Shown in pieces: positions 27,417-45,739 of a DNA stretch of 64,000 nucleotides. Position 1 is the first letter of the stretch, and each line of letters starts with the position of its first letter. The translations under genes and the position numbers were made by a program. The DNA is taken from assembly GCF_021172045.1 (NCBI RefSeq), contig NZ_CP087164.1, positions 2,604,001-2,668,000 of the forward strand. The letters are read 5' to 3'. The stretch is from Capillimicrobium parvum (GTDB lineage: Bacteria; Actinomycetota; Thermoleophilia; Solirubrobacterales; Solirubrobacteraceae). The notes under the pieces are model-generated. The model searched no databases. It had not been told where the DNA came from and saw nothing but the letters and a program-made list of their open reading frames with translations.

Positions 27417-27482
27417 CGGGTTCAGGGATCGGCAGCACGGGCCGGCGACTGAAGTCGCGGCGTGGGTAAGGTGCGCTCGCCT

Positions 27483-29072
27483 GTGATCAAGGTCAGCGTC
27501 ATCGTTCCGGTCTACAACCCCGGCAAGAACATCAGAGATCTCGTACGGACGGTCCTCGGGCAGACGCTGCCCGCGGACGAGTACGAGGTGATCTTCGTCG
27601 ACGACGGCTCGACCGACGACACGCCCGCCCTCCTCGACGAGCTCGCGGCCGAGCATGCCAACGTCCGCGTCGAGCACACGCCGAACTCCGGCTGGCCGGG
27701 GCGCCCGCGCAACATCGGCACCGACCTGGCCCAGGGCGAGTACGTCCTGTACGCCGACAACGACGACTGGATCGGCAAGGAGGCGCTCCAGCGGCTCTAC
27801 GACAAGGCGAAGGCCGACGACGCCGACGTCGTGGTCGGCAAGGTCGTGGGGCACGGCAAGGACGTCGCCCGGCCCATCTTCGCCGCCAACCAGGCCGGCG
27901 TCGGGCTCGACTGGGAACCGCTGGTCACGCTGCTGTCGCCGCACAAGCTGTTCCGGCGCGCCTTCCTCGACGAGCAGGGGATCCGCTTCCCCGAGGGGCG
28001 GCGCCGGCTCGAGGACCACGTCTTCATGGTCAACGCCTACGCCCGCACTCGCAAGGTCTCGGTTCTCGCGGACTATCCCTGCTACCACTGGGTGCGCCGC
28101 CGCCGCAGCGCGTCGTTCCGCCGCCTCGACCCGACGGGCTACTACCGCGACCTCGAGGAGGTCCTCGACATCCTCGACCGGCACGTCGAGCCCGGCGAGC
28201 TGCGCGACCGCCTCTACAGCAACTGGTACCGGGGCAAGCTGCTGCGGCGCGTCGGCGGGCCCGCGTTCGTCCGCCGCACCGAAGGCGACGAGGCCTACTC
28301 GCGCGAGCTGTTCGAGGAGATCCGCCGTGTCGCCGAACGGCGCTTCGGCGACCGGATGGAGCCGTACCTGCCGTTCAGCCTGCGCGTGCGCTCCTACCTG
28401 CTGCGCACGGGGAGCTTCGAGGGCCTGCTCGCGCTGGCGGCGTTCGAGTCCCAGCTCGAGGCGCGCGCGATCGGCTACCCGCGCGCCCACGGCAAGGGCC
28501 TGGCCGTGCGCGTCGACCTCGCACTGCGCGGAGCCGAGCAGCCGCTGCGCTTCGAGCGCTTCGGCGACGAGGAGCGCCCGCGGGTGCGATGGGTCCCGCC
28601 GCCCGGGCCGCTGCGCGACGCGCTGCCCGACGAGGTGCTCGACGCGACCGACGACTTCGCCGCCAGCCGGCCGGGGCTGTTCCTGCGCTCGCCGAAGACG
28701 CTCAGCGAGTACCCGGTCGCCACGAAGGGCGAGGCGCGGCTCATCACCGACGGCACGGTCGCCCAGGCGGGCGACGCGCGGCTGAACCCGAGCCGCGCGT
28801 CCGGGGGGTCGCCGCTGCGCGGCGGCACGTGGGAGCTGCACGCCATCGCCGACGTGGCCGGCTTCTCGGCCCCGGCGCAGGTGTCGCGGCGGATGGCCTC
28901 GGAGCCCATGCTCCTGCGGATGGGCGCCGACGGGCAGCTCGTCGAGCGCAAGCCGCCCAAGCCGCCCGCGCCGCCGCCCGCCCCGCCGCGGCTGCGCCAG
29001 CGCGTCGTGGGCCGCGTCCCGGGCGGCCCCGCCGTCTGGCGGGCGGTCCGCGGAGGCCAGAGCCGTGCCTGA
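27483..29072 (+). CDS. Glycosyltransferase family 2, TarS-like
   Basis: 529 residues. GT-A domain at the N-terminus: KVSVIVPVYNPG, then FVDDGSTDDTP, and NSGWPGRPRNIGTDLAQGEY followed by YADNDDWIG, where ADNDD acts as the DXD. LEDHVFMVNAY and CYHWVRRR follow. About 200 residues of beta-rich C-terminal sequence resemble the accessory region of TarS-type wall teichoic acid glycosyltransferases, ending in a Pro-rich tail. GTG at 27483 is chosen beside the first beta-strand; GTG at 27471 and 27462 are in frame. It opens the surface-polymer locus and overlaps the sulfotransferase by 8 bp. Confidence 0.86.
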   Translation: MIKVSVIVPVYNPGKNIRDLVRTVLGQTLPADEYEVIFVDDGSTDDTPALLDELAAEHANVRVEHTPNSGWPGRPRNIGTDLAQGEYVLYADNDDWIGKEALQRLYDKAKADDADVVVGKVVGHGKDVARPIFAANQAGVGLDWEPLVTLLSPHKLFRRAFLDEQGIRFPEGRRRLEDHVFMVNAYARTRKVSVLADYPCYHWVRRRRSASFRRLDPTGYYRDLEEVLDILDRHVEPGELRDRLYSNWYRGKLLRRVGGPAFVRRTEGDEAYSRELFEEIRRVAERRFGDRMEPYLPFSLRVRSYLLRTGSFEGLLALAAFESQLEARAIGYPRAHGKGLAVRVDLALRGAEQPLRFERFGDEERPRVRWVPPPGPLRDALPDEVLDATDDFAASRPGLFLRSPKTLSEYPVATKGEARLITDGTVAQAGDARLNPSRASGGSPLRGGTWELHAIADVAGFSAPAQVSRRMASEPMLLRMGADGQLVERKPPKPPAPPPAPPRLRQRVVGRVPGGPAVWRAVRGGQSRA

Positions 29073-30282
29073 CGCCAGCACGCCGCCCGCGGCGCCGGTC
29101 CGGGGTCCGATCTTCATCGTCGGCGCGATGGGCTCCGGCACGACCCTGCTGCGCCTCATCCTCGACAGCCACCCGCGCATCGCCATCCCCCAGGAGACCG
29201 GCTTCATGCGCGCCTACAAGGCACAGCGCACGATCCCGTTCAAGTGGCGCGGCGGTGGCTGGGGGCGCCGGCTGGGGTGGACGCGCGAGGAGTTCGACGA
29301 GCTCATGGGGGAGGTCTACGGCCGCCTGTTCATGCGCTACGCCGAGCAGCACGGCAAGGTGCGCTGGGGCGAGAAGACCCCGTACCACACGTGGCACATC
29401 GACGACATGGCCCGCGTGTTCCCCGACGCCGTGTTCCTCGGCATCGTGCGCCATCCGGGCGCGTCGGTGGCGTCGAACGTGTCGCGCTCCTGGCGCGACC
29501 CGGGCTGGGGGCGGCCGGCGCGCACGATCGAGCACTACCTGCGCAACAACCGCGAGATCGCCCGCCAGGCGACCCGGTATCCCGAGCGCTTCGTCGTCCT
29601 GCGCTACGAGGACCTGCTGCTGCAGACGGAGCCGCTGATGCGGGAGCTGCTGCAGTGGCTGGGCGAGCCGTGGTCCGACGACGTCCTGCAGCATCACGCC
29701 GTGCAGGCCCAGCGCGGCGGCGTGACCGAGGTCGAGGGCCAGACCCGGGTCGACGACCCGATCGACGTGTCGCGGATCGCGAAGTGGACGCAGACGCTCG
29801 ACGCACCGGTGCGGCGCAGGATGGAGAGCCGGCTCGCCCGGATCGGCGAGCTGTGGGGCTACGACGTCACCGACCCGATGGCGCTCGCGCCGCTGCGCGA
29901 CGGCTCGCTGCTGGCGGGCGGGGCCGACGTCGCCCGGCGCGTCCAGGGCTTTGCGGACCTCGAGATCGACCAGCAGAGCTACGTGCCGCTGACCGACCGC
30001 CGCTATCACCCCAACGAGGTCAAGCTCGTCGAGCGCGAGGCGCTGCCCGAGCGCGGGACGGTGCCGGCCGAGCCGGCTCCCGCGCCCGCGCCCGCCCCGG
30101 AGCCGAAGCCGGCTGCGAAGAAGCCCGCCCCGCCCAAGCGCAGGGCGCGCATGCCCGGGCCCGCGGAGCGTGCGCTCGCGCCGCTGGCGCGGCGGCTGCC
30201 GAAGCCCGCCCGCCGGCAGCTGATCCGGGTGCGGGCGCGCGTCCTGGGCGCGAGCGGGCGGGCCCGGCGGCCGCGGTCCTGA
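29065..30282 (+). CDS. PAPS-dependent sulfotransferase family protein
   Basis: 405 residues, GTG start. The 5'-phosphosulfate-binding loop is GAMGSGTTLLRLILDSHP near residues 20-37. The 3'-phosphate-binding part is GIVRHPGASVASNVSRSW, and RWGEKTPYHTWHID holds the substrate-side Lys/His residues; VVLRYEDLLLQ follows. The last about 80 residues are Pro/Ala/Lys-rich and basic, possibly for membrane or wall association. It overlaps the GT2 gene by 8 bp, so sulfation of the sugar polymer made by that enzyme is plausible. A second sulfotransferase lies at 53270. Confidence 0.83.
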   Translation: MPDASTPPAAPVRGPIFIVGAMGSGTTLLRLILDSHPRIAIPQETGFMRAYKAQRTIPFKWRGGGWGRRLGWTREEFDELMGEVYGRLFMRYAEQHGKVRWGEKTPYHTWHIDDMARVFPDAVFLGIVRHPGASVASNVSRSWRDPGWGRPARTIEHYLRNNREIARQATRYPERFVVLRYEDLLLQTEPLMRELLQWLGEPWSDDVLQHHAVQAQRGGVTEVEGQTRVDDPIDVSRIAKWTQTLDAPVRRRMESRLARIGELWGYDVTDPMALAPLRDGSLLAGGADVARRVQGFADLEIDQQSYVPLTDRRYHPNEVKLVEREALPERGTVPAEPAPAPAPAPEPKPAAKKPAPPKRRARMPGPAERALAPLARRLPKPARRQLIRVRARVLGASGRARRPRS

Positions 30283-30290
30283 CCGCCCGC

Positions 30291-31043
30291 TCAGAGCCGG
30301 AGCTTGCGCAGGTCCAGGCGCACGCGCCGCCGCAGCCGCCGCAGGCCGATGGGGCGCACCAGCCCGGGGTCCTCGCGCGCGCGGCGCAGGTAGTCCCAGA
30401 ACCCGGCGTCGAGCACGCGCTGCGGGTCCACCGCGCCGCGGCGGGCGAGCACGTCGGCGGGCACCGGCTGCGGATCGGGCGTGTCGATCGCCTTGGCGAG
30501 CTTCCGGTAGCGGTCGGCGAGCACGGTGCTGTGCGGGTTCGCGCCGAGGACGAGCAGCAGCCCGGTCGGCTCGGTGTCGACCCGCAGGCAGATAAGGTCG
30601 GGACGGTGGTCGGCCAGGATCGCCATCACCTTGTAGACGTCGCCCGTCCACAGCCAGGTCTGGCGGTCGCGGGCGGCCATCTCGACGTCCGCCGGGAAGA
30701 TGTCGTCGAAGACGATGACGCTCGTCCAGTCGGCGTGGCGCTCGACGTTGACGAAGTCGCGCAGCGCGAACTCGGCGAGATGCAGGCCGTCGATGAACGA
30801 GAGCCCGATCCGCCGGTCGTCGAGCGCCTCGAGCGGGTCCTCACGCTCGAAGTAGTCGTCGCTCGTCTCGCGGAAGAGCGTCACACCCTCGGGCAGCGGG
30901 TGGTTGAGCCGGTAGGACGGGTCGATCCCGACGCTGACGGACTTGGTCAGCGCGAGGCTGCCGCCGTGCCGGATGCCGATCTCCAGGTACGTGGGCGGGG
31001 CCAGGCGCTCGTGGATCTGGGCGAGGAAGTCGAGATAGTGCAC
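30291..31043 (-). CDS. Class I SAM-dependent methyltransferase (Methyltransf_24-like)
   Basis: 250 residues. YLEIGIRHGGSLALTKSVSVGIDP is motif I of the SAM fold, IGLSFIDGLHLAEFALRDFVN the motif IV region, and SVIVFDDIFPADVEM the later acidic motif. This matches methyltransferases found in glycan and cephalosporin-hydroxylase-like clusters. GTG at 31043 stands 7 bp from the divergent GT4 start, leaving very little room for promoters; TACTAG on the minus strand 19 bp upstream could be a -10. It converges on the sulfotransferase after 8 bp. Methylation of a polymer sugar is the likely role. Confidence 0.78.
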   Translation of the reverse strand: MHYLDFLAQIHERLAPPTYLEIGIRHGGSLALTKSVSVGIDPSYRLNHPLPEGVTLFRETSDDYFEREDPLEALDDRRIGLSFIDGLHLAEFALRDFVNVERHADWTSVIVFDDIFPADVEMAARDRQTWLWTGDVYKVMAILADHRPDLICLRVDTEPTGLLLVLGANPHSTVLADRYRKLAKAIDTPDPQPVPADVLARRGAVDPQRVLDAGFWDYLRRAREDPGLVRPIGLRRLRRRVRLDLRKLRL

Positions 31044-31050
31044 GGGCGAA

Positions 31051-32766
31051 GTGGGCCAAGCTAGTACACCCGCCCATGCGGAGCTCGAGCAGCTGCGCGT
31101 CGACGGCTCGGCCTTCGCGATCGAGGGCGCGCTGGCCGGCGTCGGCGATCCCGCCGAGGGCGCCAGGATCGTGGCGCGCCGCCGGGGCGGCGGGGCCGCG
31201 GAGGTCGTCGCGGAGGCGACGCTCGGCGGCGACCGCTTCGCGGCGCGGGTCGAGGCGGCGGCGCTGGCGGGCGGTGACGGGGTCTGGGACCTGTGGCTGG
31301 AGCTCGCGCCAGGAGCACGCCGGCTGCGCGTCGGACGCCACCTCGACGGCCTGCGCGGCAAGAAGGACGTCGTCGTCTACCCGGCCGTGCCGCTCGGCGC
31401 CGGCGAGGCGCGGCCGTACTACACGGTCGAGGACAACCTCTCCGTCCGGGTCGGCGCGCCCGCGGCCGCGCCGCCGCCCGGCCTGGCCATCGGCCGCGTC
31501 TCCACGCGCCGACGGCTGCTCGGCGGGCTCGCGGTCGCCGTGCACCGCGCCGCGATCCGGCTGCTGCCGCCGCTGCTCGGCCGCCGGCGCGACCCTCATC
31601 CCGGCCGCATCCGGCTCATGCTGCTGCACGCCTGGGGAATGGGCGGGACGATCCGCACGACGCTGAACCTCGCCGAGCACCTCGCCGCCGGAGGCGGCGA
31701 CGTCGAGGTCATGAGCGTCGTGCGCCGCCGCGACGAGCCGTTCCTCGGCTTCCCCGGCGGCGTCGCCGCGCGCGCGCTCGACGACCGCCGCACCCCGGGG
31801 CGCGGGCTCGCCCGCCTCCTCGGCCGCCTGCCGAGCGTGCTCGTGCACCCCGACGACTACGCCTATCCGTTCTGCAGCCTGCGCACCGACGTGGCCCTGG
31901 CCCGGACGCTGCGCGGCCTCGACGGCGGCGTCCTCGTCGCCACGAGGCCCGCGTTCGCCGCGCTCGCGGCCCGGCTGGCGCCGCCCGGCGTCGTGACGAT
32001 CGGCTGGGAGCACATGAACTTCCACGCCCACCGGCCCGGCCTGGCCGCGGAGGTCCGCCGCACGCTGGGCGACCTCGACGCGCTCGTCGTGCTCACCGAG
32101 GAGGACGAGCGCGACTACTCCGGGCTCGTCGCGGGCGGCGCCACGAAGGTCGTCCGGATCCCCAACGCGGTCCCGCAGCTCGGCGGCGGGATCTCCGACG
32201 TCCACGCCCCCGTGGTCGCCGCCGCGGGGCGGCTGCTGAGCCAGAAGGGCTTCGACCTGCTCATACAGGCGTGGGCCAGGGTCGCCGCACGACGGCCGGA
32301 CTGGCAGCTGCGCATCTACGGGTCCGGCGCGGAGGGGCCGGCGCTGCGCAACCTGGTCGTGGAGCGCGGCCTGTCCGGACAGGTGCTGTTCATGGGCGCG
32401 ACCCGGCAGCTGGGCGAGGCGCTGGCCCAGGCGTCGGTCTTCGCGCTCAGCTCGCGCTTCGAGGGCTTCGGCATGGTCATCGTCGAGGCGATGAGCAAGG
32501 GCCTGCCCGTGGTGAGCTTCGACTGTCCGCGCGGCCCGAGCGAGATCATCGAGCCGGGGGTCGACGGCCTGCTCGTGCCGGCCGAGGACGTCGACGCGCT
32601 GGCCGCGGCGCTGCTCGAGCTCATCGACGACGAGGGCGCCCGGCGGCGCATGGGCGCGGCCGCGGTCCGCAAGGCCGCGCGGTACGACCTCGCGACCGTC
32701 GGCGCCCGCTGGGACGACCTCCTGAATGCCCTGCGTCCGAGCGGGTCCGGGGGAGCCGACCGCTAG
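31051..32766 (+). CDS. Glycosyltransferase family 4 with N-terminal beta domain
   Basis: 571 residues. Residues 1 to about 140 form a beta-rich domain (VWDLWLELAPGARRLRVG) like the accessory modules of teichoic-acid glycosyltransferases. The GT-B part follows: LMLLHAWGMGGTIRTTLNLA in the acceptor half, then VVAAAGRLLSQKGFDLLIQAW, LRIYGSGAEGPAL and the donor E-x7-E in EGFGMVIVEAMSKGLP. GTG at 31051 is chosen, although it nearly abuts the divergent methyltransferase. It probably transfers a sugar or starts chains on the surface polymer. Confidence 0.85.
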   Translation: MGQASTPAHAELEQLRVDGSAFAIEGALAGVGDPAEGARIVARRRGGGAAEVVAEATLGGDRFAARVEAAALAGGDGVWDLWLELAPGARRLRVGRHLDGLRGKKDVVVYPAVPLGAGEARPYYTVEDNLSVRVGAPAAAPPPGLAIGRVSTRRRLLGGLAVAVHRAAIRLLPPLLGRRRDPHPGRIRLMLLHAWGMGGTIRTTLNLAEHLAAGGGDVEVMSVVRRRDEPFLGFPGGVAARALDDRRTPGRGLARLLGRLPSVLVHPDDYAYPFCSLRTDVALARTLRGLDGGVLVATRPAFAALAARLAPPGVVTIGWEHMNFHAHRPGLAAEVRRTLGDLDALVVLTEEDERDYSGLVAGGATKVVRIPNAVPQLGGGISDVHAPVVAAAGRLLSQKGFDLLIQAWARVAARRPDWQLRIYGSGAEGPALRNLVVERGLSGQVLFMGATRQLGEALAQASVFALSSRFEGFGMVIVEAMSKGLPVVSFDCPRGPSEIIEPGVDGLLVPAEDVDALAAALLELIDDEGARRRMGAAAVRKAARYDLATVGARWDDLLNALRPSGSGGADR

Positions 32767-32821
32767 GCTGCCGCCGGGTCTCGCTGCGTGTCGGACCGGC
32801 ATGCGCAGGGCGAGCTTCTCC

Positions 32822-34693
32822 ATGCGCGAATCCCTTGCACATCAGCGCCCGGCGGCGGACTCCGGCGCCGCGGACCGCGTAGCCGTCGGCGGCCTCGCCG
32901 CCGAGGGCACGACGTCGGTGCTCGTCGCCACCGCGGCGGGTGACGACGGCGGTCCCGCCGCGCTGCTGGCCTGGGAGCAGACGACGCTGCTGGCTCGGCT
33001 CGTCGAGCAGATGGCCAGCCTCGGCGTGCGCGACGTGCGCGTGCTCACGCGCACCGCGTGGAGCCCGGCGGTGACCGCGGCGCTCCCGGCCGGCGGGCCC
33101 CGAACCCTCGTCCTGCCCAGCGCCGACGCCGCCGAGGACCTGCGCCACATCGCCGAGATCGCCCGCGAGCGCGCCGACGCCCCGCTCGTCCTGCTCTACG
33201 GCGACATCGTCACCCACCGCGAGGCGCTGGCCGGCGTGCTCGCCGACCCGCGGCTGGCGACCGCCATCCTCAGCACGGGCGCGCGCACCGGGCGGCCGTT
33301 CGCGACGCGCACGCGCTCGCGCCGCGGCCGCGTGACGAGCGCCGGCTCGGCCTACCACCACGTCCAGCGCCCGACGATGAGCTTCCTCGGCGTCCTCAAG
33401 GTCGGACCCGACGACCGGGGCCGCGCCGCCGGCCAGGCCGACGAGCTCGCCGCGATCCTCGCCGACCCGCCCGGCGTGTTCGCCGAGGAGATGCTCATCA
33501 AGGAGCGCCGCTGGCGCCACTCGCTGGCGCGCAGCGTGCTCGGCCACGCCGAGGAGCTGGACGCCGTGCCGGCCGGCGAGGTCCCCGCGGACGGCGAGGC
33601 TCCCGCCTGGCGGCCGGCGCCCGGCGAGCCGATCGGGCCCGAGGTCCTCGACGCCGTCGAGCTGCCCGCCGACGTGCGCGAGGAGCTGGCCCTGCGCGTG
33701 CAGGCCGCGCCGGAGGACTCCGTCTCGCTCGTGCTCGTCGGGCTCGTGCGCGGCGGGACCCACGTCGGCCACAGCTACCTGCGCTCGCTGTTCTGGGCGC
33801 GGCCGCTGTCGGCGCCGTCGATCGCCGAGGCCGAGGAGCGCATCGTCGGCTACGACGAGGACAAGGTCCTGCTCGACTCGGCGGTGAAGGCCAGCGACGG
33901 CTTCTTCACGACGTTCTTCGTCAGCCCGTACTCCCGCTACATCGCGCGCTGGACCGCGCGCCGCGGCCTGACGCCCAACCAGGTCACCGCCTTCTCGCTC
34001 GCGCTGGGCTTCCTCGCCGCCGCCGGCTTCGCCACGGGCGAGCGCTGGGGGCTGATCGCCGGCGCGATCCTGCTGCAGCTCGCGTTCACGTTCGACTGCG
34101 TCGACGGCCAGCTGGCCCGCTACAGCCGCCAGTTCTCCAAGCTGGGCGCGTGGCTGGACTCGATCTTCGACCGCACGAAGGAGTACGTCGTCTTCGCCGG
34201 GCTGGCGATCGGCGGGACGCGGATGGGGGAGTCCGTGTGGCTGCTGGCCGGGATCGCGCTGACCCTGCAGATCGCGCGCCACATGGGCGACTTCTCCTTC
34301 GGCACCAGCCAGCAGCTGCAGATCGGGGCGACCGAGCACGCGCCGCTGCACCGTGCCTGGGATGGGCCCAACCCGCCGGCGGTGCGCTGGCCGCCCGAGT
34401 CGGTCGTGGCGGCCGCGGCACCCGTCGCCGAGGTCGTCGAGGCGCCCGCGCCGCCGCTGCGCGTCCGGATGTCGAAGGGGCTGCTGTCGGTGTGGCACCG
34501 GGTCGACCGTCTCGGCGCGGCCCGCTGGCTGAAGAAGATCGTCGCGTTCCCCATCGGCGAGCGCTTCGCCGCGATCTCGCTCACGGCGGCGATCTGGAGC
34601 GCGCACACGACGTTCGTGGTGCTCATCGTCTGGGGCGGCTTCGCAGCCGTCTACACCCTGACCGGCCGCTTCCTGCGGTCGATCTCCCGGTGA
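32822..34693 (+). CDS. CDP-alcohol phosphotransferase with degenerate nucleotidyltransferase domain
   Basis: 623 residues. The first about 270 residues have a nucleotidyltransferase-like fold (TTLLARLVEQMASLGVRDV and LVLLYGDIVTHREAL) but lack the GxGxR signature, so catalysis is doubtful. The C-terminal membrane part carries the complete motif D-x2-DG-x2-AR-x8-G-x3-D-x3-D as DCVDGQLARYSRQFSKLG then AWLDSIFD. Architecture resembles bifunctional inositol-phosphate cytidylyltransferase/DIPP synthase. Start at 32822 is chosen for AGGGCGAG 7 bp upstream; ATG at 32801 is possible. It is the first of four genes ending with a second CDP-alcohol enzyme. Confidence 0.85.
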   Translation: MRESLAHQRPAADSGAADRVAVGGLAAEGTTSVLVATAAGDDGGPAALLAWEQTTLLARLVEQMASLGVRDVRVLTRTAWSPAVTAALPAGGPRTLVLPSADAAEDLRHIAEIARERADAPLVLLYGDIVTHREALAGVLADPRLATAILSTGARTGRPFATRTRSRRGRVTSAGSAYHHVQRPTMSFLGVLKVGPDDRGRAAGQADELAAILADPPGVFAEEMLIKERRWRHSLARSVLGHAEELDAVPAGEVPADGEAPAWRPAPGEPIGPEVLDAVELPADVREELALRVQAAPEDSVSLVLVGLVRGGTHVGHSYLRSLFWARPLSAPSIAEAEERIVGYDEDKVLLDSAVKASDGFFTTFFVSPYSRYIARWTARRGLTPNQVTAFSLALGFLAAAGFATGERWGLIAGAILLQLAFTFDCVDGQLARYSRQFSKLGAWLDSIFDRTKEYVVFAGLAIGGTRMGESVWLLAGIALTLQIARHMGDFSFGTSQQLQIGATEHAPLHRAWDGPNPPAVRWPPESVVAAAAPVAEVVEAPAPPLRVRMSKGLLSVWHRVDRLGAARWLKKIVAFPIGERFAAISLTAAIWSAHTTFVVLIVWGGFAAVYTLTGRFLRSISR

Positions 34694-34750
34694 CGTGCGG
34701 GCCCGCGGGTCCTCAGCCACCACCGTTCCGACCCGGAGGGAGGTGACTCG

Positions 34751-35368
34751 CTGAGCTCGCTCGAGACCTACCGCGACGACGGCCCCCTGGCCCGCACGCT
34801 CGGGCGCGTCGCCGGGCGCGCCGTCCCGCTGGCGCCGACGGCGCTCATCGCGCTCGGGGTCGCCGCGCTGCTGATCGTCATCGCGATCACCGGCGACGAC
34901 GCCGACCGGTGGGTCCCGGGCGCCCTGATCGCCTGGCTGATCGTCACGGCCGGCACCTCGAGCGGGCGCCCGCACACCGATCGCCTGCGCTGGGCGATCC
35001 CGTCGCTGCTGCGCATCGGCGAGTACGCGGCGGTGCTGTGGATGGCGGCGATCGCGGGCGAGCGCTCGCTGCCGGCCGCGTTCGCGCTGCTCGGCGTCGT
35101 CGCCTTCCGCCAGTACGACCTCGTCTACCGCCTGCGCTACCGCGGGACGGTGCCGCCGCAGTGGGTGAACCTCGTCACGCTCGGGTGGGACGGACGGCTC
35201 GTGCTCGTCTGGGTCCTGCTGATCGCCGGCGCGCTGCCCGCGGGCATGTACATCGCGGCCGGGCTCCTGGCCGTCGTGCTGGTCGGCGAGTCCGTCACCG
35301 GCTGGCGACACTTCGAACGGGCCCAACGGCCCATGCTCTACGAGGACGAGGAGGAAGAAGCCGCATGA
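34751..35368 (+). CDS. Integral membrane protein, DUF5941-like, CTG start
   Basis: 205 residues with four or five membrane segments, starting SSLETYRDDGPLARTLGR and ending QRPMLYEDEEEEAA. It is in the same frame as the CDP-alcohol enzyme upstream, separated only by that gene's stop and 57 bp. The sequence resembles a domain (DUF5941, from memory) often fused to the C-terminus of such enzymes. No ATG, GTG or TTG lies in frame before residue 95; the CTG at 34751 has a very strong GGAGGGAGGTG site 6-7 bp upstream and keeps the conserved N-terminus. Its stop overlaps the next ATG by 4 bp. Confidence 0.72.
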   Translation: MSSLETYRDDGPLARTLGRVAGRAVPLAPTALIALGVAALLIVIAITGDDADRWVPGALIAWLIVTAGTSSGRPHTDRLRWAIPSLLRIGEYAAVLWMAAIAGERSLPAAFALLGVVAFRQYDLVYRLRYRGTVPPQWVNLVTLGWDGRLVLVWVLLIAGALPAGMYIAAGLLAVVLVGESVTGWRHFERAQRPMLYEDEEEEAA

Positions 35369-36096
35369 TCGGCATGGTGCTCGCCGCGGGCTGGGGCAGT
35401 CGCCTGGCCCCGCTGACCGACGCGCTGCCCAAGACGCTGCTCGAGGTCGACGGCGACCGCACGATCCTGGACGTCGCCCTGGGCAACCTCAAGCACGTCG
35501 GGCTCGACCGCGCGGTGGTCGTGACCGGCTTCCAGCACGACGTGCTCGTCGAGCGCCGCGCCGCCCTGGAGCGCCGCCACGGCCTCGAGATCGAGCTGCT
35601 GTTCAACCCCAAGGCGCTCGAGTGGAACAACGCGTACTCGCTGTGGTGCGCGCGCGAGCACTTCGCCGAGGGCGTGCTGATGGCCAACGGCGACACCGTG
35701 CACCCGCCGTCGGTCGAGGAGACGCTGCTCGCCGCGCGCGGCGCCGGCGACGTCGTCATCGCCGTCGACCAGTCGCACGAGATGGGCGATGAGGAGATGA
35801 AGGTCCACGTCCGCGACGGGCTGCTGGACCGCATCAACAAGGCGCTCGACCCGGCCACCGCGGACGGCGAGTACATCGGCGTGACGCTCATCGAGCCGGC
35901 GGCCGCGCAGCCGCTGGCCGACGCCCTGCAGGCGACGTGGGAGCGCGACCCGTCGCTCTACTACGAGGACGGCTTCCAGGAGCTCGCCGACCGCGGCGGG
36001 CGCGTGGCGATCGCGCCGATCGGCGTGGTCGAGTGGGTGGAGGTCGACGACCATGCCGACCTCGCCCGGGCGCGGGAGGTCGCGTGCCGCTGCTAG
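35365..36096 (+). CDS. Sugar/polyol-phosphate nucleotidyltransferase
   Basis: 243 residues. Classic NTP-transferase: MVLAAGWGSRLAPLTDALPK (GxGxRLxPxT-x5-PK), LLFNPKALEWNNAYSLWCA, and LMANGDTVHPP as the metal-binding Asp region. The length and the FNP-x6-N-x2-SLW stretch are like inositol-1-phosphate or phosphocholine cytidylyltransferases rather than glucose enzymes. ATG overlaps the previous stop by 4 bp. In this operon it should make the CDP-activated alcohol used by the flanking CDP-alcohol phosphotransferases, perhaps from the product of the next gene. Confidence 0.85.
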   Translation: MIGMVLAAGWGSRLAPLTDALPKTLLEVDGDRTILDVALGNLKHVGLDRAVVVTGFQHDVLVERRAALERRHGLEIELLFNPKALEWNNAYSLWCAREHFAEGVLMANGDTVHPPSVEETLLAARGAGDVVIAVDQSHEMGDEEMKVHVRDGLLDRINKALDPATADGEYIGVTLIEPAAAQPLADALQATWERDPSLYYEDGFQELADRGGRVAIAPIGVVEWVEVDDHADLARAREVACRC

Positions 36097-37142
36097 CGCG
36101 CATGGTCGGGACGCCGCTGGCCATCGACATCGGACCGGGGGCGATCGAGGCGCTGGCGCCGCTGCTGGCCGACCGCCGCATCTCCAGCGGCGGGCACGTC
36201 GCGGTGGCCGTCGGGCCCGGACAGGGCGAGGCCATCGCCGCCGTCCTGCGCCCGCAGCTGGCCAACGCGGAGATCATCCCGGTGCAGGGCGGCTCGGTCG
36301 AGGCGGCGATGGACCTGTCGCGCGGCCTGCGCTCGGGCTTCTACGACGCGCTCGTGGGCATCGGCGGCGGGCGCACGATCGACGTGGCGAAGTACGCCGC
36401 GTCGCTCGCCGGCCTGCCGATGGTGGCGGTGGCGACGTCGCTCGCGCACGACGGCCTCGCGTCGCCCGTCGCGTCGCTGACCGAGGGCGGGCGCAAGATG
36501 TCCTTCGGGGTGCAGATGCCGATCGCGGTCGTCGTCGACCTCGACTACGTGCGCCGCAGCGCGCCGGAGATGCGCCGGTCGGGGATCGGCGACGCGGTCT
36601 CCAACCTCTCCGCGATCGACGACTGGCGGCTCGCCGAGCGCGAGCGCGGCGAGACCGTCGACGGCCTCGCGGTCACGTTCGCGCGCACCGGCGCGATGGC
36701 GATCATCGACCGCAGCGACTCCATCGACGACGACCGCTTCCTCTACGCGCTGGCCGACGCGCTCGTGCTCTCCGGCCTGGCCATGGCGGTCGCCGGATCG
36801 AGCCGGCCGTGCAGCGGCGCCGACCACGAGATCCTCCACGCGATCGACCACCTGTTCCCGGGCAGCGCGAACCACGGCGAGCTCGCCGGCATGGCCGCGC
36901 TGTTCACCTGCCATCTGCGCGACGACGCGGACACCGCCGCGCACCTCGACGCCTGCCTCGCGCACCACGGCCTGCCGCGGGTGCCCGCCGACGTTGGGCT
37001 CACTCCCGGGCAGTTCGCCGCGGCGGTGCACCACGCGCCGTCCACGCGCCCGGACCGCTACACGATCCTCGAGCACCTCGGGCTGGACGAGCGGGAGGTG
37101 AGGCGCCGTGTCGACGCGTACGTCGGCGCCGTCGATCGCTGA
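36084..37142 (+). CDS. sn-glycerol-1-phosphate dehydrogenase-like enzyme (EgsA/AraM type)
   Basis: 352 residues in the iron/zinc alcohol dehydrogenase-3-like superfamily. The cofactor region is DALVGIGGGRTIDVAKYAAS, followed by VATSLAHDGLASPVASL, diagnostic of the G1PDH/AraM branch. Metal ligands are in AVSNLSAIDDW (Asp) and in CSGADHEILHAIDHL with NHGE (His residues). G1PDH reduces dihydroxyacetone phosphate to glycerol-1-phosphate, the archaeal stereoisomer. GTG at 36084 has GGGAGG upstream and overlaps the nucleotidyltransferase by 13 bp. Arabinitol-1-phosphate or another polyol phosphate is an alternative product. Confidence 0.8.
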   Translation: MPLLARMVGTPLAIDIGPGAIEALAPLLADRRISSGGHVAVAVGPGQGEAIAAVLRPQLANAEIIPVQGGSVEAAMDLSRGLRSGFYDALVGIGGGRTIDVAKYAASLAGLPMVAVATSLAHDGLASPVASLTEGGRKMSFGVQMPIAVVVDLDYVRRSAPEMRRSGIGDAVSNLSAIDDWRLAERERGETVDGLAVTFARTGAMAIIDRSDSIDDDRFLYALADALVLSGLAMAVAGSSRPCSGADHEILHAIDHLFPGSANHGELAGMAALFTCHLRDDADTAAHLDACLAHHGLPRVPADVGLTPGQFAAAVHHAPSTRPDRYTILEHLGLDEREVRRRVDAYVGAVDR

Positions 37143-37896
37143 GCTGCGCGCGGTCACCCAGCCCCCCTCGATCTTCGAGCGCAACAGCGGCGAGCACTGG
37201 GCGGGGCGCCTGTACATGCGCCGCCTGTCGCCGTACCTGACGCGGCTGCTGCTGCGCACCCCGATCACGCCGAACGGCGTCACGTGGCTGATGATCCTGT
37301 CCGGCATCGCGGCGGCCGCCGCGCTGACGCTGCCCGGGATCTGGCCGGCCGCGCTCGCCGTCGTCCTGATCCAGCTGCAGCTCCTGCTCGACTGCTCCGA
37401 CGGCGAGCTGGCCCGGTGGACGGAGCGCAAGTCGCCGGCCGGGATCTACCTCGACCGGCTGGGCCACTACGTGACCGAGGCGCTGCTGCCGGTCGGGCTC
37501 GGCATCCGGGCCGACGGCGGCTGGGAGCACATCGGCGGCTGGACGACGCTCGGGCTCGTCGTGTCGGTGCTCGTGCTGCTCGTGAAGTCCGAGACCGTGC
37601 TCGTGACGATCGCGCGGGTGGAGGCCGGGCTGCCGCGCGCGCAGGACACGCGGGCGGTCGCGGCGCCGCGCGCGGCCGGGCTGGCGGCGGCGCGCAGCGC
37701 GCTGGGGCGGCTGCCGTTCTTCCGCGCGTTCGTGGCGATGGAGGCGACCCTGCTGGCGCTGGCCGCGGCGGTCGGCGACGAGATCGCGGGCGACCTGGAC
37801 GTCACGCGGGGGCTGCTGATCGCACTCGTGCCGATCGCAGCGGTCACCGCGGCCGGTCACCTGCTGGCGATCCTGACGTCGAGCCGGCTGCGGTGA
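37108..37896 (+). CDS. CDP-alcohol phosphotransferase family membrane protein (variant motif)
   Basis: 262 residues, GTG start with GGGAGG upstream. Six or so membrane segments. The motif reads DCSDGELARWTERKSPAG then IYLDRLGHYVTE: the first three Asp are kept, but the fourth, the proposed general base, is His. The change may mark a subfamily with a different acceptor. It overlaps the G1PDH gene by 35 bp and the next GT2 by 4 bp. With 32822-34693 it is one of two CDP-alcohol enzymes in the operon; one may initiate and the other polymerise or cap. Confidence 0.82.
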   Translation: MSTRTSAPSIAELRAVTQPPSIFERNSGEHWAGRLYMRRLSPYLTRLLLRTPITPNGVTWLMILSGIAAAAALTLPGIWPAALAVVLIQLQLLLDCSDGELARWTERKSPAGIYLDRLGHYVTEALLPVGLGIRADGGWEHIGGWTTLGLVVSVLVLLVKSETVLVTIARVEAGLPRAQDTRAVAAPRAAGLAAARSALGRLPFFRAFVAMEATLLALAAAVGDEIAGDLDVTRGLLIALVPIAAVTAAGHLLAILTSSRLR

Positions 37897-38804
37897 GCGG
37901 CGCGCCGCACCCCTCCACCCGCCGCGGCCCGGACGCCGTGGGGCCCGAGACCTTCGGCTGCGTCGTGCTCACGGGCGGCCGGCGGCCCGACGACCTGCGC
38001 CTCGCCCTCGCCACGCTGCTGGACCAGGCCAGCGTTGAGCTCGACGTCGTCGTGGTCGGCAACCCGTGGCAGCCGAGCGGCCTGCCGGCGGGCGTGCGCG
38101 GCGTGGGGCTGCCGGAGAACGTCGGCATCCCGGCGGGGCGCAACGCGGGCGTCGAGCACGTGGACGGACGCCTGCTGTTCTTCCTCGACGACGACGCGTC
38201 GCTGGCGGATGCGGACGGCCTCGCCCGCGTCGCCGCGAAGTTCGCCGCCGATCCGGCGCTCGGCGCCGTCCAACTGCGCGTGGAGTCACGCGACGACGGG
38301 CCGCCGCTGCGCAACTGGGTGCCGCGCCTGCGCGTCGGCGACCGGTCGCGCTCGGGCGACGTGGCCGCGCTGTGGGAGGGGGCGGTGGCGATCCGCCGCA
38401 GCGTGTTCGAGGAGGTCGGCGGCTGGCCGGGCGAGTTCCGCTTCGTTCACGAGGGCGTCGACCTGGCCTGGCGCGTGCTCGACGCCGGCTACCGCGTGCA
38501 CTATGCCGGCGACGTCGTCGCCCGCCACCCGTCGCACGTCGTCGGCCGTCACGGCTACTCCGCCTACTACGGCGCCCGCAACCGCGTGTGGATCGCCCGG
38601 CGCAACCTCCCGGCCCCGCTCGGGCTGCTGTTCGTCGCCACGTTCGCCGCGAGGACGCTGCCGACGCTCCTGCGCCGCCGCCACCTGCGCGCGGCGCTGC
38701 GCGGCTATCGCGACGGCCTGCGGCTCCCGTGCGGCCCGCGGCGGCCGCTGCGGGCCGCGACGCTGTGGCGCATGACCCGCAACGGCCGCCCGCCCGTGAT
38801 CTGA
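37893..38804 (+). CDS. Glycosyltransferase family 2
   Basis: 303 residues. GT-A fold: FGCVVLTGGRRPDDLRLAL, LPENVGIPAGRNAGVEHV, LLFFLDDDASLAD with the DXD motif, then GAVAIRRSVFEEVGGWPGEF and the acceptor-side FVHEGVDLAWRVLDAGYRVH. The C-terminus is basic with an amphipathic stretch (LLFVATFAARTLPTLLRRR), suggesting peripheral membrane binding. GTGA overlap with the upstream CDP-alcohol enzyme places it in the same operon. It resembles rhamnosyl/galactofuranosyl-type transferases. Confidence 0.87.
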   Translation: MSGAPHPSTRRGPDAVGPETFGCVVLTGGRRPDDLRLALATLLDQASVELDVVVVGNPWQPSGLPAGVRGVGLPENVGIPAGRNAGVEHVDGRLLFFLDDDASLADADGLARVAAKFAADPALGAVQLRVESRDDGPPLRNWVPRLRVGDRSRSGDVAALWEGAVAIRRSVFEEVGGWPGEFRFVHEGVDLAWRVLDAGYRVHYAGDVVARHPSHVVGRHGYSAYYGARNRVWIARRNLPAPLGLLFVATFAARTLPTLLRRRHLRAALRGYRDGLRLPCGPRRPLRAATLWRMTRNGRPPVI

Positions 38805-38835
38805 TGCGCCCGAGGACGCAATAGCCTGAGATCGG

Positions 38836-39729
38836 ATGTCGACCCAGACGGTCTCCGCGTCAGCCGACGACCCACTGCACCGCCAGTGGGAGGACGAGTT
38901 CGCGCCCGAGGTGCATGTCTACGAGCCCCACAAGGTCGGGCTCCCGCCGCTGCGCGCCTACGTGCACGAGCTCTGGCGCCGGCGCGAGTTCGCCATCGAG
39001 CTCGCGCGCACGAGGCTCGCCGCGCAGCACTACGGCACCGCGTTCGGGATGACGTGGCTCATCCTCAACCCGCTGCTGCTGGGGGTCGTCTACTTCCTGC
39101 TCGTCGACATCCTGCGCAGCGGCCACCACCCGAAGGGCTTCTTCGCCCACCTGCTCGGCGGGATCTTCGCCTACTACCTGTTCTCGGACTCCGTGCGTCC
39201 CGCGGTCAAGTCGGTGACGTCAGGCGGCCGGCTCATCCTCAACACCGCCTTCCCACGCACACTGCTGCCGCTGTCGGCCGTGTTGACGTCGGTCATGCGG
39301 TTCCTGCCGACGATGGGCGTCTACGTCATCGTCCACGTCGCCTCGGGCCTGTCGTTCGACGTGGAGATGCTGTGGGCGATCGTGCCGCTCCTGGAGATCC
39401 TCGTGTTCACGCTGGGGATCTGCATGCTCGTGGCCGCGCTGCAGGTCTACTTCCGCGACATGGCCAACTTCCTGCCGTACCTGCTGCGGATCTGGCTCTA
39501 CGCGTGCCCGGTCCTCTGGTACGCGGCCGAGGTGCCGCACGGCTACAAGTGGCTGCTCTACGCCAACCCGCTCGGCAGCATGCTGACCGCGTGGAGCGAG
39601 GCCCTCAACCAGGGCATCACGCCGGGCACGACGTGGCTCGTGCTCGGCGGGGCATGGGCCGTGGTCGCGTTCGTCGCCGGCGGCCTGTTCTTCGTCTCCC
39701 GGGAGCGTGAGTTCGCTGTCCGCCTCTGA
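38836..39729 (+). CDS. ABC-2 polysaccharide/teichoic acid export permease (TagG/RfbA type)
   Basis: 297 residues. About 60 cytosolic residues (RREFAIELARTRLAAQHYGT) precede six membrane helices. The TagG/Wzm pattern is TAFGMTWLILNPLLLGVVYF, KSVTSGGRLILNTAFPR, LLVAALQVYFRDMANFLPY and CPVLWYAAEVPHGYKW. It is followed with 23 bp overlap by its ATPase. It exports the lipid-linked polymer made by the upstream enzymes across the membrane. Spacing of 31 bp from the GT2 gene keeps it in the same run of genes. Confidence 0.9.
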   Translation: MSTQTVSASADDPLHRQWEDEFAPEVHVYEPHKVGLPPLRAYVHELWRRREFAIELARTRLAAQHYGTAFGMTWLILNPLLLGVVYFLLVDILRSGHHPKGFFAHLLGGIFAYYLFSDSVRPAVKSVTSGGRLILNTAFPRTLLPLSAVLTSVMRFLPTMGVYVIVHVASGLSFDVEMLWAIVPLLEILVFTLGICMLVAALQVYFRDMANFLPYLLRIWLYACPVLWYAAEVPHGYKWLLYANPLGSMLTAWSEALNQGITPGTTWLVLGGAWAVVAFVAGGLFFVSREREFAVRL

Positions 39730-40558
39730 GGCTCCGGTGCCCGCCCCCGCGGCGTCCGCGCGGGACGAGACCGAGCGGGCGGCCGAGGCCCCCGCCTCGA
39801 TCAAGGTCGAGAACGTCTCGATCACGTACCAGACGGCGCTCGCGCACCGCCAGACGCTCGTCGGCACGCTGTCACGCCTCCGCCGCCGCCGCAAGGTGAC
39901 CAAGGAGATCAAGGCGGTCCGCGACGTCTCCTTCGAGGTCCCCCGCGGCACCGTGCTCGGCATCGTCGGCGCCAACGGCGCCGGGAAGTCGACGCTCGTG
40001 CGGGCGATGGCGGGCATCCTGCCGCCGACGAACGGGCGCATCGAGGTCCACGGGCGCGTCAGCACGCTGCTCGCCCTCGGCGTGGGCTTCGACCGCAAGC
40101 TCACCGGCCGCCAGAACGTCGTGCTCGGCGGTCTCGCCGCGGGCCTGAGCCGCGAGCAGCTCGAGGACAAGTACGAGGAGATCGTCGAGTTCGCCGAGCT
40201 CGACGAGTTCATGGACATGCCGATGCGCACCTACTCGCAGGGCATGTACGGCCGCCTGGCGTTCTCCGTGGCGGTGAACATGGAGCCCGACATCCTGCTC
40301 ATCGACGAGGCGCTGTCGGTCGGCGACGCGCACTTCAAGCGCAAGTCGTTCGACAAGATGCGCGAGCTCTGCGACCAGGCGCACACGATCGTGCTCGTCA
40401 GCCACGCCCTGCGCTCGCTGCGCGAGCTCTCCGACGAGGTCGCGTGGCTGAACAAGGGCGAGCTCGTCGAGTACGGCCGGCCCGGGAAGGTGATCCGGGC
40501 CTACCAGCGCTACCTCAAGGTCGACGAGGACGACGAGGTCACGCAGGAAGACGTCTGA
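39707..40558 (+). CDS. ABC export ATPase (TagH/RfbE type)
   Basis: 283 residues, GTG start with GGGAG upstream. Walker A is GANGAGKSTL, Walker B is ILLIDEALSVGD, the signature YSQGMYGRLAFSVAV, and VSHALRSL the H-loop. The segment GRVSTLLALGVGFDRKLTGRQN is specific to polysaccharide/teichoic acid exporters. An N-terminal 40-residue extension is acidic and Ala-rich; there is no C-terminal sugar-recognition domain as in Wzt, arguing for TagH-like export without end-cap sensing. The stop overlaps the convergent GT-C gene by 20 bp. Confidence 0.9.
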   Translation: MSSLSASEAPVPAPAASARDETERAAEAPASIKVENVSITYQTALAHRQTLVGTLSRLRRRRKVTKEIKAVRDVSFEVPRGTVLGIVGANGAGKSTLVRAMAGILPPTNGRIEVHGRVSTLLALGVGFDRKLTGRQNVVLGGLAAGLSREQLEDKYEEIVEFAELDEFMDMPMRTYSQGMYGRLAFSVAVNMEPDILLIDEALSVGDAHFKRKSFDKMRELCDQAHTIVLVSHALRSLRELSDEVAWLNKGELVEYGRPGKVIRAYQRYLKVDEDDEVTQEDV

Positions 40559-42002
40559 CGCAGCGCGGGCTGGCGAAGACGGCGTAGCTGCGGTTGCGGT
40601 AGATCCGCGTGTAGCGGGCGGGCGCGGTCGCCTTCGGGAAGTTCTTCTTGTAGAAGCGCTTGGCGTACTTCGTGTGCCGGGGCTGGAGGAACAGCTCGCC
40701 GAGCGGGCTGGCGTGCCCGCGCACGGTGCCGACGCTGCCCGGCGGCCCTGCCGCCCAGAATCGGAAGTAGGGAATGGGGCGGTGGTCGGCGGTCGACAGC
40801 GGCGCGCAGACCGCGAAGGCCGCCTTGACCTTCGGCGCCTCGGCCGCCTTGCGCAGGTCCGCGTAGAGGTGGCTGTCGGCGGCGAAGCGCTGGTCGAGGT
40901 CGCGCAGCATCGAGAGCTGCTTGGGGATGAACACGAGCGACAGCAGCAGCGCGAAGGCGCCGATGCCCATCCACCATCGGCGCGCGGAGGCGTGCTTCGG
41001 CAGCAGCTGCCAGCCGAACACCGCCGCGCCGTAGAACAGCGACAGCAGGATCGCCGGGGTCCGCACATAGCGGCCGATCAGCGGCAGGCCGAACAGCGGG
41101 CCGATCGCGAAGACGGCGAGCATCGCCACGACGACGGCGACGATCAGCACGCCCTGGCGGCGCCGGTACATCCAGGCGAAGACCATGCCGATCGGCACGC
41201 CCAGGATCAGCGGCTCGCGCAGCGTGAAGGCCAGGTAGGCCGCGCCCCACCTCGGCACCTGGGTGATCGAGCGGCGCCGGTCGTTGGACGCGGCCAGCTC
41301 GGACGTGCCGTGCAACGAGTGCAGCGGGTCCCCGGTGATGATCCAGTCGCTCGCGGCCCATACGACCGGGGCGATGAGCGCGACGGCCACGAGCTTCGCC
41401 CGCTCCTGCCACGTCCGTCCCGCCCACAGGTAGAGGACGTAGAGGCCGGAGAGCACCCAGGCCTCGGGGCGCAGCAGCCCGGCGACCGCCAGCACCGCGA
41501 GCACCGGCACGCCCCGCTTCGGCTTCACCGCCTCGAGCAGGACGGCCCCGACGATGAGCGCCTCGAAGGGCAGGTCCTGGTAGGCGAGGACCGCGTCGCG
41601 CTCGATCGCGGGCCGGGTCAGGACGACGAGCGCGGCGAGCGCGCCGGCCCATGGCGTGAACAGCCGGCTGCCCAGGCGGAAGACGAGCCAGACGAGCGCG
41701 CCGAAGCACAGGAGCGTGATGAGGACCATGACCCGGTCGGCGTTGTCGCCGAACGGCAGCGCGATCGAGCTGACCGCCATCTGCAGCGGGTGGGGCGTGG
41801 GGGCGTAGTCGGCGGTGTACTCCGGCGTGAACCCGTGCCACAGGTCGTGCGCCCACAGCAGCGCGTAGCGCGCGTCGTAGTTGAGATACCACGGGTCGTA
41901 GACCAGGTACAGGAGCGCGGCGACGCCCACGATCGTCGCCACGGCGGGCAGCCAGCGGGCCATCGTGGCCGGCGCGGCGCGCGGGGGCGTCGCGGTGGCC
42001 AT
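40539..42002 (-). CDS. Polytopic GT-C-like membrane protein
   Basis: 487 residues from the ATG at 42002 with about ten membrane segments. The first luminal loop has YDPWYLNYDARYALLWAHDL, followed by YAPTPHPLQMAVSS and RPAIERDAVLAYQDLPFEAL, the D-x-D and acidic-loop layout of GT-C transferases such as ArnT/PMT relatives. The C-terminal about 110 residues form a soluble domain ending in basic residues. The ATG at 42047 would crowd the divergent gene at 42056, so the shorter start is preferred. It probably adds sugars from a polyprenyl donor outside the membrane. Confidence 0.78.
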   Translation of the reverse strand: MATATPPRAAPATMARWLPAVATIVGVAALLYLVYDPWYLNYDARYALLWAHDLWHGFTPEYTADYAPTPHPLQMAVSSIALPFGDNADRVMVLITLLCFGALVWLVFRLGSRLFTPWAGALAALVVLTRPAIERDAVLAYQDLPFEALIVGAVLLEAVKPKRGVPVLAVLAVAGLLRPEAWVLSGLYVLYLWAGRTWQERAKLVAVALIAPVVWAASDWIITGDPLHSLHGTSELAASNDRRRSITQVPRWGAAYLAFTLREPLILGVPIGMVFAWMYRRRQGVLIVAVVVAMLAVFAIGPLFGLPLIGRYVRTPAILLSLFYGAAVFGWQLLPKHASARRWWMGIGAFALLLSLVFIPKQLSMLRDLDQRFAADSHLYADLRKAAEAPKVKAAFAVCAPLSTADHRPIPYFRFWAAGPPGSVGTVRGHASPLGELFLQPRHTKYAKRFYKKNFPKATAPARYTRIYRNRSYAVFASPRCVRRLPA

Positions 42003-42055
42003 CCGACTCACGAAGATACCGGCCGCGCAGGCGGCGCTCCCTACCATGGCGCTCC

Positions 42056-44894: not shown

Positions 44895-45656
44895 TCAGGT
44901 CCGCGTCGCCACCAGCGCCAGCTTGCGCACGCGCCCCTCGTCCAGCCATCGGATCCAGAGGCGGTGGGCGGCGAGCAGCTCGTCCAGCGCCCGGCGGCCG
45001 ATCTGGGCGGCGATCTCCTCGGCGTGCTCGGCGAACGCGCTCGTCAGCGCCTGCGCCGTCGCGCGATGGGCGCGGCTGTGGTCCTCCTGCCATGTGACGG
45101 TGAGCCCCGCCCGCTCCAGGGATGCGGTCAGCTCGTCGAGCGGGGTGAGCCAGACCGTGTCGGCGTCGGGCATCGCCGCTCGCTCGGCTGCGGTCAGCGG
45201 CGGCCCCTCCTCGAGCGTGAAGGCGAACCGCCCGCCGGGCCGCAACGCCGGGAAGATCTCGCGGATCAGGGCGTCCTTGTCCTCGAAGGCGAGCATCGTC
45301 TCGAGCAGGAGCACAACGTCGAAGGGACCGGAGGGGAGCGGCGGAACGTGCGCGACCGCGAAATGGCACGGCAGATCGCCCGCGAGATCGCGGGCGACGG
45401 CGACGGCGCTCGCGCTGGCGTCCACGCCCAGGTAGGCGCAGCCCAGCTCTCGGGTGAGGAGCCGCCCGGGCCCCGCGGTGCCGCAGCACAGGTCGAGCAC
45501 GCCGACGCCGGGGCCGATGCCCGCCTGGGCGGCCAGGCCCCGGATCTCGCCGGCGGTCATGAAGCTCTCCTGCCCGACGTACTCGCCGGCGGCGTACGCG
45601 GACAGCCGCGCGCGATGCAGTGCGCGGTGAAACGGCGCGCGGTCGTCCTGCCTCAT
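44895..45656 (-). CDS. Class I SAM-dependent methyltransferase
   Basis: 253 residues. Opens RALHRARLSAYAAGEYVGQESFM, then motif I VLDLCCGTAGPGRLL, GVDASASAVAVARDLA, and FDVVLLLETMLAFEDKDALI with LRPGGRFAFTLEEG as post-motifs. It resembles UbiE/sarcosine-dimethylglycine methyltransferases (Methyltransf_11 or 25). ATG at 45656 is preferred because the longer frame runs into the divergent gene. It is divergent from the CDP-alcohol/sulfatase fusion, 83 bp away, suggesting shared regulation. Substrate unknown. Confidence 0.83.
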   Translation of the reverse strand: MRQDDRAPFHRALHRARLSAYAAGEYVGQESFMTAGEIRGLAAQAGIGPGVGVLDLCCGTAGPGRLLTRELGCAYLGVDASASAVAVARDLAGDLPCHFAVAHVPPLPSGPFDVVLLLETMLAFEDKDALIREIFPALRPGGRFAFTLEEGPPLTAAERAAMPDADTVWLTPLDELTASLERAGLTVTWQEDHSRAHRATAQALTSAFAEHAEEIAAQIGRRALDELLAAHRLWIRWLDEGRVRKLALVATRT

Positions 45657-45739
45657 CGCGCTGCCGGCCTCGACGCCATCGGCCCCGGATCCTGCCGGAA
45701 TCCGCCCCGGCTCTCTGCGGCGGCGCTCCGGGTCTGCCT

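Follow-up and report, generated by a model that had tools for sequence, protein, structure and literature searches.

We analyzed a 64,000-nucleotide stretch (positions 2604001-2668000; hereafter the window) of the 5.95 Mb, single-contig genome of Capillimicrobium parvum. The window, whose GC content is very high (70-78%), carries at 27462-40558 a collinear run of forward-strand genes for glycosyltransferases, cytidine diphosphate (CDP)-alcohol enzymes, a dehydrogenase of the sn-glycerol-1-phosphate dehydrogenase (G1PDH) type and a TagGH-like exporter. We propose, with a probability of roughly 55%, that this locus makes and uses CDP-activated sn-glycerol-1-phosphate (G1P) for an exported cell-envelope glycan. 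In our model, the enzyme encoded from 36084 would reduce dihydroxyacetone phosphate (DHAP) to G1P, and the nucleotidyltransferase encoded from 35365 would join G1P to cytidine triphosphate (CTP) to give CDP-1-glycerol. The CDP-alcohol phosphotransferase CAP1, probably with the help of its homologue CAP2 and a DUF5941 protein, would then move glycerophosphate onto an acceptor in the membrane, a glycan or glycolipid that the GT2 and GT4 enzymes would have built. Finally, the TagGH-like transporter would export the glycan, while a TarS-like GT2 and a sulfotransferase would decorate it.

An earlier reading of the same DNA, made from the sequence alone (the original prediction), had described a teichoic-acid-like locus in which the archaeal stereoisomer could enter a wall polymer or phosphoglycolipid through CDP-glycerol. 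All the genes it named were found in place, collinear and on the forward strand, and family matches bore out the TarS-like GT2 and the two further glycosyltransferases. The sulfotransferase (29065-30282), a methyltransferase-like open reading frame (ORF; 30291-31172) and the DUF5941 gene (34751-35368) are additions to it. Its central scheme, an archaeal-type G1PDH that supplies CDP-alcohol phosphotransferases by way of a CDP-activating enzyme within an exported-polymer locus, is strongly supported, because the linkage and the residues are conserved, the folds match and GGGPS is absent. Computation shows which genes are there, that they are conserved, that folds and residues match and that both GGGPS and canonical TagD are missing. 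G1P as the product of the dehydrogenase and as the substrate of the nucleotidyltransferase is inferred, and so are the other substrates, the stereochemistry, the acceptor and the nature of the product (wall polymer or phosphoglycolipid). We regard the earlier interpretation as plausible, and as better supported than a sequence reading alone could show.

A conserved dehydrogenase-nucleotidyltransferase pair

The dehydrogenase (36084-37142, +) is an Fe-ADH_2 protein related to EgsA and AraM, and the G1PDH profile NF002022 was by far its best family (230 bits, E 3e-68). Among solved structures, it matched G1PDHs (PDB 4rgq) at E 4e-39, whereas glycerol dehydrogenases, 3ce9 excepted, reached E 5e-8 at best. 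Its AlphaFold model (pLDDT 92.3) superimposed on the DHAP-bound G1PDH of M. jannaschii (4rgq) with Z 41.0 and 2.1 Å over 318 aligned residues, on 5fb3 with Z 40.1, on B. subtilis AraM (9h4x) with Z 37.6 and on glycerol dehydrogenases with Z 31-36; among characterised enzymes, the fold is closest to the G1PDHs. D123, D170, H248, H252 and H264 are conserved in alignments A1 and A6, with E in place of D170 in 1/15 and 2/26. Also conserved are R325 and the SRPxSG motif. We take D170, H248 and H264 to be metal ligands, and D123 and H252 to be substrate residues. The most economical prediction from sequence and model is that this enzyme converts DHAP to G1P.

The gene immediately upstream (35365-36096, +) encodes an NTP_transferase protein of the LicC/IPCT type (COG1213-like). 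Its nearest PDB entries are LicC (1jyk, E 1.2e-10), a phosphocholine enzyme, and T. maritima IMPCT (4jd0, E 2e-10), an inositol-1-P enzyme, both of which use CTP. The counterparts of the IMPCT active-site residues R16, K26 and D112 (PMC12275187) are R13, K23 and D110 in the window protein, a trio that is invariant in 13/13 homologues. We propose that the protein is a CTP:sn-glycerol-1-phosphate cytidylyltransferase.

The original prediction suggested surveying the gene set across Actinomycetota, and we did so in 296 genomes, counting G1PDH at E <= 1e-30. G1PDH was present in 32 genomes, spread over 22 genera, and the nucleotidyltransferase in 39, including all 32 with G1PDH (Fisher p ~2e-36, a value that overstates the independent evidence because the sampled genomes are related). 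In 29 of the 31 genomes where the distance could be measured, the two genes lay within 300 bp of each other. We also took 80 named loci from GTDB genomes, 68 of which are flanked by 2.5 kb or more of sequence on either side and were treated as full context. Within this set, the nucleotidyltransferase lies no more than 300 bp from G1PDH in 67 loci, and a CDP-alcohol phosphotransferase no more than 4 kb away in 63. Chance neighbourhood is rejected by these linkage counts. The hosts of the named loci include Solirubrobacterales, Microbispora, Actinomadura, Nocardiopsis, Micromonospora, Actinoplanes, Glycomyces and Streptomyces, and the nearest named relative of the window G1PDH (79% identity) belongs to L061, from a metagenome-assembled genome of Solirubrobacterales. 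A divergent G1PDH clade (36-44% identity) retains the same nucleotidyltransferase partner, and a Bac_transf initiating sugar transferase lies near the one locus of this clade that was scanned.

The presence of G1PDH in actinobacteria has been taken to indicate archaeal-like lipids (PMC6431249), and PlsY and PlsC accept G1P in vitro (PMC13400652). As has been proposed for bacterial G1PDH, G1P could instead end up in the membrane, in ether lipids of the archaeal type or in mirror-image phospholipids made through PlsY and PlsC. GGGPS is absent from this genome, and across the 296 genomes GGGPS/PcrB gave only weak, partial matches of 25 bits or less; archaeal-type lipids are therefore unlikely, and we rejected them as an explanation. 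Membrane lipids of either kind would also leave the near-invariant nucleotidyltransferase and CDP-alcohol phosphotransferase partners unexplained, and we consider this destination for G1P highly improbable.

CDP-alcohol phosphotransferases and the DUF5941 protein

CAP1 (32726-34693, +; PF01066, 51.5 bits), whose true start likely lies inside the ORF, consists of a degenerate cytidylyltransferase-like domain (about residues 60-380) followed by a class I CDP-alcohol phosphotransferase. The signature of this class, DxxDGxxARx8GxxxDxxxD, has eight residues, all of which are intact in CAP1 (DCVDGQLARYSRQFSKLGAWLDSIFD) and invariant in its alignment (A5). By sequence, the nearest PDB entry is AF2299 (E 2e-12), and sequence and AlphaFold model agree on the closest structures: the model (pLDDT 84) matched Archaeoglobus fulgidus AF2299 with Z 23.2 and IPCT-DIPPS with Z 21.5; a PDB search with the C-terminal part alone gave no match. 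Since AF2299 has been shown with CDP-glycerol as donor in a small, hydrophilic pocket (PMC4634129), a polar CDP-alcohol is, by analogy, a likely donor for CAP1 too.

The second homologue, CAP2 (37108-37896, +; PF01066, 31.7 bits), also has AF2299 as its nearest PDB entry, but its activity is uncertain and its signature incomplete: the fourth Asp is His in the window gene. This position is His, or Ala in Streptomyces, in 57/57 readable CAP2 homologues (the window and L061-L140), and the remaining signature residues are conserved despite this loss. The fourth Asp has been described as the catalytic base and is essential in the M. tuberculosis homologue (PMC4634129). Its constant loss from CAP2 is a new finding. 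Speculatively, CAP2 could act as a partner subunit or work on an acceptor, for example a phosphate, for which a general base is unnecessary.

Between CAP1 and the nucleotidyltransferase lies the gene for the DUF5941 membrane domain protein (34751-35368, +; PF19365, 118.4 bits). Alignment with L061 places its start at a CTG codon at 34751, after the ribosome-binding site GGAGGGAGG. In L061 it is a separate gene that starts with ATG, and in Streptomyces loci it is fused to CAP1. We found no mention of DUF5941 in the literature searched. At L104:7755-8621 of Nocardiopsis coralli, a CAP1 homologue that lacks the whole signature still adjoins DUF5941.

The window contains a third CDP-alcohol phosphotransferase domain, with an intact signature (DLVDGQVARRTGTESRLGARFDGEID), in an 836-residue protein encoded at 45620-48130 (+) whose C-terminal end is a sulfatase/alkaline-phosphatase-like domain. 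No relative of this protein occurs in the related loci that were fetched.

Predicted export, teichoic acid genes and the possible fate of the product

From 35365 to 38804, each ORF overlaps its successor by 4-35 bp. The last of these genes encodes a GT2 glycosyltransferase (37893-38804, +; PF00535, 40.5 bits), whose counterpart follows CAP2 in many related loci. Next come a TagG/Wzm/KpsM-like ABC-2 permease (38836-39729, +), with weak matches to Wzm and KpsM and a PF01061 score of 22.6 bits that is under the cut-off of 26.9, and a TagH/Wzt-like ABC ATPase (39707-40558, +; PF00005, 77 bits). The ATPase scored 201.8 bits against PRK13545, the teichoic acids export ATPase family, and 190-202 bits across PRK13545/13546, below the equivalog cut-offs. 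At the other end of the run, the GT2 with a TarS linker domain (27462-29072, +; PF00535, 110.6 bits; PF22181, TarS_linker, 101.2 bits), which is kept in L061, precedes a sulfotransferase family 3 protein that may be a decorating enzyme (29065-30282, +; PF13469, 113.7 bits). A GT4 glycosyltransferase of uncertain start (31051-32766, +; PF13692, 133.5 bits; PF00534, 130.8 bits) leads into CAP1. The methyltransferase-like ORF (30291-31172, -; Methyltransf_24, PF13578, 33.3 bits), also kept in L061, is uncertain in its start and in its role in the pathway.

The locus resembles a teichoic acid locus in its TarS-like GT2 and possibly in its TagGH-like exporter, but it is not a standard one. No TagB/TagF-type polymerase (PF04464) was found among the genes scanned there, and canonical TagD is absent from the whole genome (best match 33.7 bits, cut-off 165.4), so we rejected an ordinary TagD/TagF teichoic acid locus. 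The genome has one strong TagF copy, 1.1 Mb away among sulfotransferase-like, AftA-like and GT2 genes, as well as two LCP ligase genes (PF03816). It also has GpsA and hence a supply of ordinary sn-glycerol-3-phosphate, alongside which G1P would be made in addition. In a second genome of the same family (G121), genes for GDPD, TagF, the nucleotidyltransferase, a divergent G1PDH and a mannitol dehydrogenase stand side by side (L056:6848-11989), with TagF directly adjoining the nucleotidyltransferase-G1PDH pair and GDPD next to TagF.

Across the survey, TagF is associated with G1PDH: it occurs in 13/32 genomes with G1PDH compared with 10/264 others (p 1.3e-8), and by genus in 6/22 compared with 9/177 (p 0.0024). 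None of the 13 genomes with both TagF and G1PDH has TagD over the cut-off. Mutual exclusion of TagD and G1PDH across the phylum was not retained: there is no overlap, but TagD genomes are too few (Fisher p = 1.0 overall; p 0.024 within TagF genomes and 0.10 by genus). A literature search on the configuration of glycerol phosphate in actinomycete walls gave nothing useful.

Several observations weigh against the proposed route. The NF002022 score of the dehydrogenase is below the NCBI archaeal equivalog cut-off of 413 bits, and its top match among solved structures, 3ce9 (Z 44), is a 'glycerol dehydrogenase' from structural genomics that is itself uncharacterised. CpgD, a COG1213 cytidylyltransferase, makes CDP-glycerate and does not use glycerol-1-phosphate (PMC12275187). 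In G121, the mannitol dehydrogenase adjoins the G1PDH-nucleotidyltransferase pair, so another polyol is possible there. TagGH-like genes occur in 25 of the 68 full-context loci; the majority of related loci lack TagGH in their vicinity, and export is thus not shared by all of them. Finally, which protein carries out the transfer is ambiguous, because CAP2 lacks the presumed base and the Nocardiopsis CAP1 lacks the signature.

The scores of the dehydrogenase, the 3ce9 match and the mannitol dehydrogenase would fit a dehydrogenase and nucleotidyltransferase whose substrate is some other ketose or polyol phosphate. The building block would then be CDP-X, with X other than glycerol, and the rest of the route would be unchanged. 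The functional breadth of the Fe-ADH/G1PDH superfamily and the diverse substrates of COG1213 enzymes (PMC12275187) would fit it too. The characterised relatives of the nucleotidyltransferase take phosphocholine, inositol-1-P, phosphoglutamine or phosphoglycerate. We nevertheless consider CDP-X unlikely, given that all the G1PDH residues checked are conserved, that the best fold match among characterised enzymes is to G1PDHs, and that having TagF and GDPD as neighbours in G121 suggests glycerol phosphate. A phosphonate pathway, with a PntC-like nucleotidyltransferase and an Fe-ADH, was also considered; no PepM was found among the genes scanned, and the whole genome was not searched for it.

Even if G1P is the substrate, the product could differ. 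The CDP-alcohol phosphotransferases might make a phosphoglycolipid whose head group is glycerophosphate and which the ABC transporter flips, with no repeating polymer. Polymers are the usual cargo of TagGH-like transporters, and TagF is present elsewhere in this genome and beside the pair in G121. Consequently, we hold such a lipid to be rather unlikely, although the locus lacks a TagB/TagF-type polymerase and characterised CDP-alcohol phosphotransferases form single phosphodiesters (PMC4634129). Alternatively, CDP-1-glycerol and inositol-1-phosphate could be joined into a soluble glycerophosphoinositol or DIPP-type solute that serves as an intracellular osmolyte. That CAP1 and CAP2 are nearest to Archaeoglobus AF2299 and IPCT-DIPPS, that the genome has one inositol-1-phosphate synthase and that a Micromonospora locus has the core genes without TagGH would all agree with this. 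TagGH and the glycosyltransferases, however, are in the operon here, in Streptomyces and in Nocardiopsis, none of the locus genes that were scanned is an inositol gene, and TagF neighbours the pair in G121; we give the osmolyte only a slim chance. The exported envelope glycan remains our preferred product.

Three other features flank the locus or lie elsewhere in the window. A polytopic membrane protein with a weak PMT_2 match (dolichyl-P-mannose mannosyltransferase-like; 40539-42047, -; PF13231, E 3.7e-4) follows the exporter and is kept in L061 and L063. The gene at 24306-26132 (+) encodes a protein with a long, low-complexity region of Pro/Ser/Glu/Ala-rich repeats (PAAPSEPAAPTE...), possibly wall-spanning, and that at 16374-19163 (+) a trypsin-like protease with C-terminal RTX calcium-binding repeats. 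In Streptomyces tauricus (L130:14851-19430), the exporter gene is followed by hopanoid-type genes, namely two squalene/phytoene synthases, an amine oxidase family protein and a polyprenyl synthase.

Relation to known systems and meaning

The locus plausibly belongs with the CDP-polyol-dependent surface glycan systems. It would share CDP-polyol activation, TagGH-like export and TarS-like glycosylation with the wall teichoic acid pathway of Bacillus (TagD/TagF/TagGH). In contrast to that pathway, the glycerol phosphate would come from G1PDH and not from GpsA, a LicC/IPCT-type enzyme takes the place of TagD, membrane CDP-alcohol phosphotransferases are found in the locus instead of TagB/TagF, and the predicted stereochemistry is opposite. 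With the CDP-glycerol and CDP-inositol phosphotransferases AF2299 and IPCT-DIPPS of Archaeoglobus it has in common the two-domain build and, as predicted, a polar CDP-alcohol donor and a G1P-making host, whereas CAP1 lies beside or is fused to DUF5941, among glycosyltransferases and an exporter. The dehydrogenase resembles B. subtilis AraM and archaeal EgsA in fold (Z 37.6 and 41) and in metal and substrate residues, but its partners here are a cytidylyltransferase and a CDP-alcohol phosphotransferase, where those enzymes have GGGPS/PcrB.

A 2026 Streptomyces pan-proteome study reports a CDP-alcohol phosphatidyltransferase, a GT2, a sugar phosphate nucleotidyltransferase, tagG, tagH, araM and crtB as a syntenic region (PMC13118837). 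It is the same gene set as here, treated there as synteny only; the passage on this region invokes teichoic acid biosynthesis and secondary metabolism and proposes no G1P route. A literature search that covered subscription journals thinly, and so is no proof of novelty, gave no paper in which bacterial CDP-glycerol is proposed to depend on G1PDH, and nothing relevant for the SCO675x locus tags.

Beyond Bacillus, bacterial G1PDH has no settled role, and the actinobacterial enzyme has figured in debates about the lipid divide and early membranes (PMC6431249, PMC5059525). We tentatively suggest, at somewhat less than even odds, that CDP-sn-glycerol-1-phosphate is a dedicated building block in many Actinomycetota, where it would replace TagD-made CDP-sn-glycerol-3-phosphate and give an envelope glycan whose glycerol phosphate has the archaeal handedness, and that this, rather than archaeal-like lipids, is the main role of G1PDH there. 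If our model is correct, a CDP-1-glycerol route to the envelope would give actinobacterial G1PDH a further function and would run counter to the statement that bacteria likely lack CDP-1-glycerol (PMC8262930). This route, which is testable in laboratory Streptomyces, would also extend the known cytidylyltransferase specificities and polymer stereochemistries by one each.

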